Shown: one piece after another, positions 42,406 to 45,407 of the stretch | Layout: each line of letters opens with the position of its first letter | Numbering within the stretch: the first letter of the stretch is position 1 | Source of the DNA: Sediminicoccus sp. KRV36 | GTDB lineage: Bacteria > Pseudomonadota > Alphaproteobacteria > Acetobacterales > Acetobacteraceae | Reading direction: 5' to 3' | Length of the DNA: 64,000 nt | Assembly: GCF_023243115.1 (NCBI RefSeq) | Contig: NZ_CP085081.1 | Location: forward strand, 1,922,001 to 1,986,000 | Translations under genes and position numbers: made by a program | Notes under the pieces: generated by a model | Database searches by the model: none | The model's input: the letters and a program-made list of their open reading frames with translations, nothing else | Told to the model about the DNA's origin: nothing

Positions 42406-43683
42406 ATGCCCGCCATTGCCGACATCATCGCCCGTGAAGTGCTGGACAGCCGGGGCAACCCGACCGTGGAGGCGGAGGTGGTGCTGGATGACGGCAGCCG
42501 CGGCCGCGCGATCGTCCCCTCCGGCGCCTCGACCGGCGCGCATGAAGCGGTGGAGCTGCGCGATGGCGACAAGTCCCGCTATGGCGGCAAGGGCGTCACC
42601 AAGGCCGTGGCGAATGTCGAGGGCGAAATCTTCGACGCGATTGGCGGGCTGAACGCCGCCGACCAGGTCAAGATCGACCAGATGATGATCGAGTTGGACG
42701 GCACGCCCAATAAATCCCGCCTCGGCGCCAATGCCATGCTGGCCGTTAGCCTCGCCACCGCCAAGGCGGCGGCCCAGGCGCATGGCCTGCCGCTGTATCG
42801 CTATGTGGGCGGCGCCTATGCGCGCACGCTGCCGGTGCCGATGATGAACATCATCAATGGCGGCCAGCACGCCGACAACCCGATTGATATCCAGGAATTC
42901 ATGGTGATGCCGGTGGCTGCCGGCACCATCGCCGATGCGGTCCGCGTCGGCTCAGAGATTTTCGCGGCCCTCAAGAAGCAGCTGCATGATGCCGGCCACA
43001 ACACCAATGTCGGCGATGAGGGCGGCTTCGCCCCGAATATCGGCAGCGCGGACGAGGCACTGGCCTTCATCGCCAAAGCTTGCGAGGCGGCCGGTCACCG
43101 TGTGGGCGAGGATGTGATGTTCGCGCTCGATTGCGCTGCCACCGAGTTCCACCACGACGGCAAATACGTGATGGAAGGCGAGGGCAAGACGCTGGATGCC
43201 GGCGGCATGGTGGATTACCTCGCCGCACTTTGCGCCAAGTGGCCGATCATCTCCATCGAGGATGGCATGTCCGAGGATGACTGGGCCGGCTGGAAGCTGC
43301 TGACCGAGCGGCTGGGCGGCAAGATCCAGCTGGTGGGCGATGATCTTTTCGTCACCAACCCCGAGCGCCTGGCCATGGGCATTGAGCGCGCCACGGCCAA
43401 TTCCATCCTGGTAAAGGTCAACCAGATCGGCACGCTGACCGAGACGCTGGAAGCGGTCGAGATGGCGCATCGCGCAGGCTACACGGCGGTGATGAGCCAC
43501 CGCTCCGGCGAGACGGAGGATTTCACCATCGCCGATCTCGCCGTCGCCACCAATTGCGGGCAGATCAAGACCGGCTCGCTCAGCCGCTCTGACCGGCTGG
43601 CCAAGTACAACCAGCTGATCCGCATCGAGCAGGATCTGGGGCCCGCGGCGCGCTATGCGGGGCGGACGATTTTGAAGCGCTGA
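42406..43683 (+). CDS. eno: enolase
   Basis: Glycolytic enzyme converting 2-phosphoglycerate to phosphoenolpyruvate; 425 residues. Signature segments are [60 protein letters not shown] and the active-site [20 protein letters not shown] and [21 protein letters not shown] lies before the ATG at 42406. The last 12 codons are duplicated 68 bases downstream. ftsB and pdhA normally follow directly in this class, so the genes between 43822 and 45233 look inserted. Confidence 0.96.
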
Positions 43684-43751
43684 GCCACGGGGCGCGCCGC
43701 AAGGCGGAGGGATTGGCGCGCTATGCGGGGCGGCCGATTTTGAAGCGCTGA
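43647..43751 (+). repeat. duplicated 3' end of eno (two 37-bp direct repeats)
   Basis: The last 37 bases of eno (43647-43683, through the stop) recur at 43715-43751 with a single mismatch. The offset is 68 bases, so the copy is out of frame with the gene. It looks like the scar of a partial duplication or of integration and loss of an element at the gene end. Confidence 0.85.
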
Positions 43752-43769
43752 AAGAGGCCTCCGGCGGCT

Positions 43770-43784
43770 GGGGCCATTGGCCCC
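43770..43784 (+). terminator. hairpin after eno
   Basis: GGGGCC, ATT, GGCCCC forms a 6-bp GC stem with a three-base loop, lying between the eno tail copy and the convergent hypothetical gene. No long U-run follows. Likely a transcription end or a REP-like element. Confidence 0.5.
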
Positions 43785-43821
43785 GGACCCCTTACCTTGT
43801 CTCCAGCGCGGGCTGGGCGGA

Positions 43822-44466
43822 TCAGCCCCCATCCTCCGGGTCTTCCAGGAGGAAGGGGCCGTAATGGTCCAGCACGCTGGCGAAGGCGGCTTCGCCATAT
43901 TCCTCGTCCATCGCGTCCTTGAGGTCGGCCAGGGCCGCTTCGCCCTGGAATTCGGGCAGCAGGGCCTCGCGCAGGAAGGCTTCGGGGCCGGCGAAGGCGG
44001 CGCACACATCTTCCATGGCGTGGATCGCGAAGCTTCGATCCTCGGGGAAGAGGATGTGGAAGCTGTTGGGATGCGCCTCGAAGAAGCTGGAAATGCGGCG
44101 TGCTTCGAGCGGGATGCGCCAGACCGCCGTGGGGTCAGTGATCCCCTCCGCATCCACATAGGTTCCGCACAGATGCGTGATGCCACGACGCTGGAGGGCG
44201 GCGGCGAGGGGCACGAACATCTCCAACGGTCCGCTGTTCCGGACATCCCAGTGCTGGAGGAGTTGGACGCGCCAGTCATGCTCGCCCAGCCATGCATTGC
44301 TGAGTCGTGTGCCTTGCCTGCCGGATCGGGTCTTGAAGACCTCCAGCATTTCGTAGGCCTTGTCGCGCAGCGCCATCTGAGTGGCGCGGCCGGGGAAATG
44401 CGCCGTACCGGCCATGATCTCCGGGTCGCACTGGTCCGGTAGGTCGTCCCGGTTGTCCTGTGTCAC
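43822..44466 (-). CDS. hypothetical protein in the islet after eno
   Basis: 214-residue acidic soluble protein with no motif I recognise. Notable segments are RSGRQGTRLSNAWLGEHDWR, RGITHLCGTYVDAEGITDPT and an acidic C terminus (LLEDPEDGG). GTG at 44466 has AGGAGAG upstream. It lies 11 bases downstream of the interrupted gene 44478-45233 and in the same direction, so the two were probably one operon. A small acidic protein behind a broken modular gene could be an immunity or accessory protein; this is speculation. Confidence 0.65.
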   Translation of the reverse strand: MTQDNRDDLPDQCDPEIMAGTAHFPGRATQMALRDKAYEMLEVFKTRSGRQGTRLSNAWLGEHDWRVQLLQHWDVRNSGPLEMFVPLAAALQRRGITHLCGTYVDAEGITDPTAVWRIPLEARRISSFFEAHPNSFHILFPEDRSFAIHAMEDVCAAFAGPEAFLREALLPEFQGEAALADLKDAMDEEYGEAAFASVLDHYGPFLLEDPEDGG

Positions 44467-44477
44467 GATGTTCTCTC

Positions 44478-45233
44478 CTAGTCAGCCAAGCGGTAACGGA
44501 TCTTGTGGATAGTCGGCCACTTGACGCTGCCATCAGGCAGCACAGTTCGTCGCTGCACATCCATGGTGGGGAAGGGGGTGTCTCGGATTGTCGTGCTGCG
44601 CCTGATGGTAATTTGCCGGTTCTCATCCAGACGGTAGATCCGGCTGCCTCCATCAACTCGCGGTTCCCCCTGTGGCCGCAAATCACGGATGTCGCGCTCA
44701 CGCAGGCTGAGGCCGCCGTCGCGCCGCCACTGGAATTCGCCCCTTTGCAACACGGGCTTCTCGGGATCGGGCGCCGTCAGCCGGTCCCGCAGCAGCCGGC
44801 CAAGGCGTTGGCCGACTTCATCCTCCGGTGCGGCGGGCGGCGGCAGGGTTGGCCGCTGGTTTCGGCGATCCTCATTGTTCGGCCGCCGTCCTCGCCCGCC
44901 CCGGCCATCGGCGGGGCCGCGCGTCAGGCGCTCCCAAAGGGATCGTCGCCAATTGGCGTATTGGATGCTCGCTGGGGGCAGGGCGCCAGGGCTGGCCGCT
45001 GTGCCACCCGGCGGCGGGCTGCGTCAATGGCCGGCGACGGGCCTACCTTCGCGGCGATAGGGCCGCACCCAGACGGCGCCGCGTGCTGCCGCGTCCTTCG
45101 GATGCAGCGCGCCAAAGCCGCCGCGGACCCAGCCGGTGAAGACATCGCGCTCGGGGTGGCCGTTCTGCCAATAACGCGGCTCGCGCATGGCGCTTCGCAG
45201 ATCGGCTTCGGTGGTGCGGATGGGATTGGCCAT
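44478..45233 (-). pseudogene. hypothetical gene interrupted by an in-frame TGA at 45024-45026
   Basis: From ATG at 45233, behind a strong AAAGGAG site, the frame encodes 69 residues (MANPIRTTEADLRSAMREPR, then YWQNGHPERDVFTGWV) and stops at TGA 45024-45026. The same frame stays open for another 181 codons to 44478, with protein-like sequence on both sides of the stop (SIQYANWRRSLWERLTRG; SGSRIYRLDENRQ-like region near the end, ending KIRYRLAD). No usual start codon occurs just after the TGA; the first is GTG at 44753. One base change, for example CGA to TGA, would explain this, and the TGA-C context is a leaky one. Family unknown. Confidence 0.65.
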
Positions 45234-45407
45234 GGGAACTCCTTTCGATGCAGACCATATTCCTATTTTATAGAAAAAGCAATAAAATCCTATGTCATGT
45301 ATTACTCGCTGTATTCGCAACAAAGAAGCGCCAGAAACCCTTGCATGCGCGGCCGGATGGTGATTCTGTCGGATTCGCGCATCAAGGGACGCGCTTTGGG
45401 GGGTTCC

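Follow-up and report, generated by a model that had tools for sequence, protein, structure and literature searches.

A candidate toxin-immunity cassette between eno and ftsB of Sediminicoccus sp. KRV36 and a toxin family with a scaffold-tail-like N-terminal domain

Polymorphic toxin systems pair a conserved N-terminal domain for trafficking with C-terminal domains that are interchangeable and belong to known toxin families, and an immunity gene lies directly downstream of the toxin gene. We analysed a 64,000-nucleotide stretch of Sediminicoccus sp. KRV36 (Acetobacteraceae; contig NZ_CP085081.1, positions 1,922,001 to 1,986,000; hereafter the window), in which two genes, gA and gB, lie between what we take, from their sequences, to be eno and ftsB. 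On balance we lean towards regarding this islet as an orphan toxin-immunity cassette whose toxin gene, gB, is broken in this strain, gB coming from a polymorphic-toxin family with an N-terminal tag that resembles the tail of a capsid scaffolding protein and would load toxins into T7-like particles. The genome of the window is denoted G000, other genomes are given G-numbers, and fetched loci L-numbers.

Several described systems come close. MuF toxins (Jamet et al. 2017, PMC5576092) join an N-terminal phage-head domain to interchangeable toxin domains; packaging into the phage head is predicted for them (PMC3482391; PMC5576092), and they are proposed to travel in the head and to enter together with DNA. 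MuF is a portal-associated head protein, reported for temperate phages of Firmicutes, whereas the family described here has a scaffold-tail-like tag and occurs in Alphaproteobacteria. In phage P22, the scaffold is anchored inside the procapsid by its C-terminal helix-loop-helix (PMC9965877), and other proteins become enclosed in vivo when they are fused to a shortened form of it (PMC9962691). The engineered P22 nanocages, in which cargo is joined to the shell-binding part of the scaffold (PMC9962691), follow the same logic as that proposed here, but they are laboratory constructs with the scaffold part at the C-terminal side of the cargo, while the tag here is natural and N-terminal. The contact-dependent inhibition toxin-immunity pair of PDB 5t86 is also among the closest known systems.

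The toxin family and its scaffold-tail-like tag

The N-terminal part of gB matched 44 of the 397 genomes of the bacterial family (E up to 0.001). The 26 full-length proteins that were aligned share an N-terminal domain of about 65 residues, followed by a linker and by differing C-termini, among them phage lysozyme (Phage_lysozyme/Pesticin; 2/26) and alpha/beta hydrolase (4/26); Ntox44, Ntox50, and unknown types also occur in the toxin family. Ntox50, in a Hyphomonadaceae member, and Ntox44, in a member from G772, a genome of another alphaproteobacterial family, both scored above the Pfam cut-off, and the toxin family reaches Acetobacteraceae and beyond. A small gene often stands directly behind the toxin gene. 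Homologues of gA follow gB-type genes in nine loci (L132, L135-L140, L153, and L160), in tandem in four of them; the genes behind other types of C-terminal domain were read by eye only, and those behind three lysozyme-type or related members (L147, L148, and L301) encode signal-peptide-like protein starts, as expected if the target lies in the periplasm. A constant N-terminal domain with exchangeable C-terminal domains and a small downstream gene is the layout of polymorphic toxins with immunity. Three hallmarks of such systems were found: the conserved domain with interchangeable C-termini in the 26 proteins, known toxin families among the family members, and the predicted immunity gene directly downstream as the gA homologues of the nine loci. 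As the predicted immunity protein, gA would neutralise the putative toxin gB.

Neither gA nor gB of the window had a convincing match in Pfam or PHROG, the C-terminal domain of gB had no Pfam match, and the N-part of gB resembled GNAT (PF13480, E = 0.005) only below the cut-off, which was taken as chance. Comparison of the gA profile and of the scaffold with PDB sequences gave nothing convincing, and a Foldseek search with gA gave no match with an E value below 0.001. A tblastn search of plasmid and phage collections with one N-terminal domain (from L108) found no match. G000 holds further copies of the N-terminal domain. The copy at C1:150106 is open and adjoins siphovirus-type tail genes, that at C1:1243466 is of the hydrolase type, and those at C1:1827956 and C1:2704576 are broken and degenerate, respectively.

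Over its first ~40 residues, the toxin N-terminal domain resembles the C-terminal tail of the T7-type scaffold, PF05396. In the viral contig L132, where the gene order is portal, scaffold, toxin, three gA-like genes, major capsid protein, and tail genes, the scaffold (P0002) matches PF05396 with an E value of 3e-18 and ends in DEGELRAMMRDPRYWRTREPEFVKRVTDGFRRLVGGAG; its tail aligned with the toxin domain with an hhalign probability of 97.3 (E = 2.4e-11). The typical tail, comprising the last ~40 residues of PF05396 proteins, reads ExxLRxMMRDPRYWRxREPEFVxRVTxGFRRL. It is this part that the toxins have in common with the scaffold, the rest of which they lack, carrying instead a strand region, a linker, and the toxin domain; gB had no PF05396 match, and the tail region alone matched in hhalign.

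A profile made from the toxin domain only was then run over 5504 open reading frames (ORFs) of 79 viral loci, drawn from the best 80 of 259 found, with the toxin-carrying L163 omitted. It matched 80 ORFs, of which 78, each from a different locus, have the tail motif, and the 79th is the scaffold of L183, with the tail LMRDPRYW. The last match, L173:5004-5831 (E = 9.5e-5), is an ORF that looks like cargo and lies between the scaffold and capsid genes of a viral contig. No shuffled ORF was matched. The ORF of L173 ends in a stretch resembling the second half of the address domain.

The N-part of the window's own gB likewise found scaffold ends elsewhere, for example in G387 at C1:3606085-3606267 (E = 8.8e-5), overlapping a scaffold at 3606148-3606867. 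A search across the class gave matches in 50 of 385 genomes, some as small as 0.9 Mb, mostly over profile positions 5-49; 11 loci from other genomes were checked, and nine had a relative of the scaffold body, L285 the tag only, and L282 neither. Three proteins of G772 carry the tag near the N-terminus with different C-terminal domains following, their PF05396 matches lying within positions 159-185 of 188 and under the cut-off (E = 0.001-0.02). G772 has a scaffold; G782 has tag-like proteins and no P0002 match. A scaffold tail together with a scaffold was also seen in L284, L286, and L288, from alphaproteobacterial genomes of 0.9-1.6 Mb, with capsid genes in L284 and L288. A scaffold tail in very small genomes is odd for a dispensable prophage.

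A T7-like structural element and the proposed route of delivery

G000 carries a T7-like structural element at C1 about 4324400-4338000 (locus L263, C1:4319000-4338000). It encodes an S24-type repressor, two small genes, portal, scaffold, major capsid protein, tail tube, nozzle, a small gene, spike, and a T7-type terminase, the last being the only one of ten element proteins above the NCBIfam cut-off; integrase or replication genes were not noticed in L263-L272. A scaffold match was present in 18 of 21 same-genus genomes, one partial match counted. The elements of G000, G008, and G015 have dctM as a common neighbour, which in G008 lies about 4.5 kb further away, and the other four same-genus stretches (L266-L269) showed no dctM within the DNA examined. 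In the former three genomes omega was 0.05-0.19 in six element genes, and dS was like that of eno or somewhat higher. Decaying copies were seen as well, one without a nozzle or spike match (G016) and one with the scaffold in two frames (G004). Among the 80 best IMG/VR contigs holding the element scaffold, 37 are 12-14 kb long. Like gene transfer agents, the element is one phage-like structural cluster present in most genomes of the genus and apparently inherited vertically. Gene transfer agents have three independent origins, with an HK97-type capsid for BaGTA (PMC9662315), whereas the element has T7-type portal, scaffold, capsid, and terminase.

Of the 24 genomes that matched the domain (E up to 1e-6), 23 have the scaffold, compared with 12 of 31 without a match (Fisher p = 1e-5), the 31 having been taken from 353 such genomes. 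This test omits the 20 genomes that matched more weakly, scaffold tails themselves being among those matches, and also G005, G014, G017, and G019, whose domain status was not listed. The relatedness of the genomes inflates this co-occurrence; within the genus there was no contrast (4/5 versus 7/9), and outside it the counts were 19/19 and 5/22.

The analysis shows the layout of the cassette, the likeness of tag and scaffold, exchangeable C-termini that include known toxin domains, the co-occurrence with the element, and purifying selection; loading, delivery, toxicity, and immunity we infer. By the parallel with P22, the tag would load toxins into a T7-like procapsid and the particle would deliver them: expression of the chromosomal element would make procapsids, the toxin tag would bind their inner face as the scaffold's own tail does, the enclosed toxin would be carried into another cell with the particle contents, and gA would protect the producer's kin. 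Loading and delivery would likely resemble those of MuF toxins, with another tag. More tentatively, and with appreciable doubt on our part, Alphaproteobacteria may keep a domesticated T7-type particle for the delivery of dispersed toxins, each addressed by a copy of the scaffold tail and loadable in trans like effectors of the type VI secretion system (T6SS); such a particle might serve as a weapon, or it might act in gene transfer and carry toxins as well.

The settings of the family loci bear on two other explanations. Two of the 31 loci lie in the T7-like element and four beside siphovirus-type genes, the toxin gene stands between scaffold and capsid genes in two loci, and L132-L135, L143, and L092 are in phage regions. 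Such settings would suit a phage moron or its remnant, that is, prophage cargo acting in the lysogen through exclusion or addiction and not delivered in a particle, and the window's islet, with gB broken and gA kept, looks like an addiction remnant. We consider this unlikely, since it leaves unexplained why one scaffold-like tag should be found on unrelated C-terminal domains, and since the signal-peptide-like starts described above fit attack from outside.

The other explanation is that the N-terminal domain came from a phage scaffold and now serves another export route, T6SS or some other secretion system. Within the fetched DNA, 25 of the 31 loci, namely L139, which is the equivalent site in G008, and 24 of the remaining 30, are beside none of the ten phage proteins tested, like orphan secretion effectors, although three of the 31 were chosen from a viral collection and, the queries being few, phage contexts may be missed. 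Lysozyme and lipase C-terminal domains are, moreover, usual T6SS cargo. VipB (PF05943), however, was no commoner in genomes with the domain (11 of 24) than in those without it (17 of 31; p = 0.59), and G008, at 99% completeness, lacks VipB despite its three domain matches. T6SS as a required carrier was rejected for lack of a contrast, and we judge export by a different secretion route to be improbable, more so than cargo acting in the lysogen. Loading into T7-like particles remains the reading we prefer.

The eno-ftsB interval

The features of the interval are collected in Table 1. Sequence comparison confirmed what a sequence-only reading of the window had reported, that the last 37 nt of eno are repeated 68 nt downstream (start to start, as direct repeats) with one mismatch. 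The same reading placed two opposite-strand genes directly after the copy: these proved to be gA and one frame, gB, split by an in-frame TGA, and a dispersed palindromic repeat comes first, with gA and gB beyond it. The A+T-rich stretch ahead of ftsB is there as described (GC 0.54 at 45200-45499 compared with ~0.65 around), and so is the extra DNA of about 1.6 kb at the eno 3' end, which corresponds to a cassette of 1.5-1.6 kb; in G014, whose eno protein is 96% identical, the two genes are separated by 167 bp that hold no gene.

Table 1. Features of the eno-ftsB interval (positions in the window)
Feature	Position	Strand	Basis or remark
eno (enolase; name presumed), intact	42406..43683	+	same gene in 41/41 genomes searched
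eno tail, repeat copy 1 (in frame, true eno end)	43647..43683	+	sequence comparison
Spacer between copies, 31 nt	43684..43714	n/a	read directly
eno tail, repeat copy 2 (untranslated)	43715..43751	+	abuts palindromic repeat, much like the single eno tail in G008/G019
Dispersed palindromic repeat	43750..43800 (about)	n/a	62 other genome matches
gA, 214 aa, predicted cytosolic immunity protein, intact	43822..44466	-	homologues, omega
gB, putative toxin gene, broken: address domain at the N-terminus, proline-rich linker, toxin-like domain at the C-terminus	44478..45233	-	family comparison
gB linker and C-terminal domain	44481..45023	-	folds seen on relative L135
In-frame TGA interrupting gB	45024..45026	-	frame open there in G008, G019
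gB N-terminal domain, 69 aa, resembling the C-terminal tail of T7-type capsid scaffolding proteins	45027..45233	-	profile comparison
A+T-rich stretch upstream of gB	45237..45325	n/a	possible promoter region (inferred)
ftsB (name presumed)	45408..45737	+	named from sequence

When frame ends were compared with the next 200 nt, eno scored 34 and the others among the 42 long coding-like frame ends of the window 12 or less; when 150 frame ends from 15 further Roseococcus loci were scored, one exceeded eno (47, in L280) and the next reached 15. The scores of nearly all other frame ends being far lower, the eno-tail repeat is not chance, and comparable gene-tail copies occur elsewhere too. In L280 (window's genome, ~9.2 kb) an exact 47-bp duplication lies directly behind a frame end, the frame possibly being spurious. 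The 31-nt spacer was seen neither upstream of copy 1 nor downstream of copy 2, and the repeat is therefore no simple tandem duplication. RNA folding at the repeat was not better than that of shuffles (z = -0.74). Copies of the palindromic repeat often form inverted pairs whose members are separated by some tens of bases.

The stretch that follows the eno stop was read in 17 other same-genus genomes, being unreadable there in G001, G005, and G017. G008 and G019 (Roseococcus) have gB and gA at the same place behind a single eno tail, with the palindromic repeat within a few bases of the eno stop, whereas in the window it follows directly after copy 2; from this position, copy 1 and the spacer are an extra local duplication in the window's strain. 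G018 has its own eno-tail repeat (24/26 nt, 23-nt spacer) and no inserted genes (L028), and its spacer shares a CGCGCCGCAAGGCG core with that of the window. By eye, the intervals of G015 (494 bp, L016), G009 (582 bp, L029), and G022 (540 bp, L032) seemingly hold other small genes, and the spot looks variable. In G017 the same cassette lies instead directly behind a gene that we take, from its sequence, to be aspS.

Between G000 and G008, gA has a dS of 0.37, close to the 0.42 of eno, and the islet is therefore no recent arrival in either genome; for the same reason a recent transfer into the window's strain alone was not favoured. In the eno tree, where the G008-G019 fork is weakly supported (85/89), G000 is basal to a clade comprising G008 and G019, with the islet, and G014, G005, and G015, without it, a distribution that requires at least two gains or losses. 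The cassette moved, or was gained or lost, more than once, and the repeat plays no part in this.

The sequence-only reading had taken the tail copy for an integration scar, and a repeat at a conserved gene end adjoining extra genes is indeed suggestive of an integrative element that used the eno 3' end as its attachment site. This we hold to be very improbable: the genes occur without the repeat (G008 and G019), the repeat without the genes (G018), and the cassette behind aspS (G017), while both copies in the window lie on one side of the genes instead of flanking them, the occupied relatives have a single copy, and a domain search of the islet frames found no integrase domain, in agreement with what had been read. 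That reading would have given way had all close relatives carried the genes without a tail copy; G008 and G019 come near to this, though not all relatives have the genes. The eno tail copy is a local duplication unrelated to the cassette. There is equally little to be said for gA and gB being spurious or dead frames, as the in-frame stop and the lack of a convincing domain match might suggest, since between species omega is 0.15-0.26 for gA (G000, G008, G019, and G017) and about 0.2 for the C-part of gB (G000, G008, and G019), and the frames are open in relatives. For the short gB N-part omega was 0.2-0.54 with few changes; the gB start codons of G008 and G019 are uncertain, and G019 is altered at conserved N-part residues. 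The cassette is coding and under purifying selection.

Novelty and meaning

In the open-licence PMC literature, judged by title and opening of the abstract, we found no report of scaffold-tail toxins, nor of any gene transfer agent or domesticated element of T7 type. The gB N-part had no Pfam match to MuF above the cut-off, and none of the 19 families matched by the 26 members is named MuF; nor does the window's cassette, placed between eno and ftsB, lie in a prophage, as MuF toxin genes do. The window's copy is itself a broken member of the family. If loading is real, phage heads would have another way, besides MuF, of carrying polymorphic toxins, and a short recognisable tag would allow such toxins to be found by sequence. 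It would also be a natural counterpart of the P22 scaffold-cargo fusions of nanotechnology, and it may be a reason why the T7-like cluster stays under purifying selection in Acetobacteraceae.
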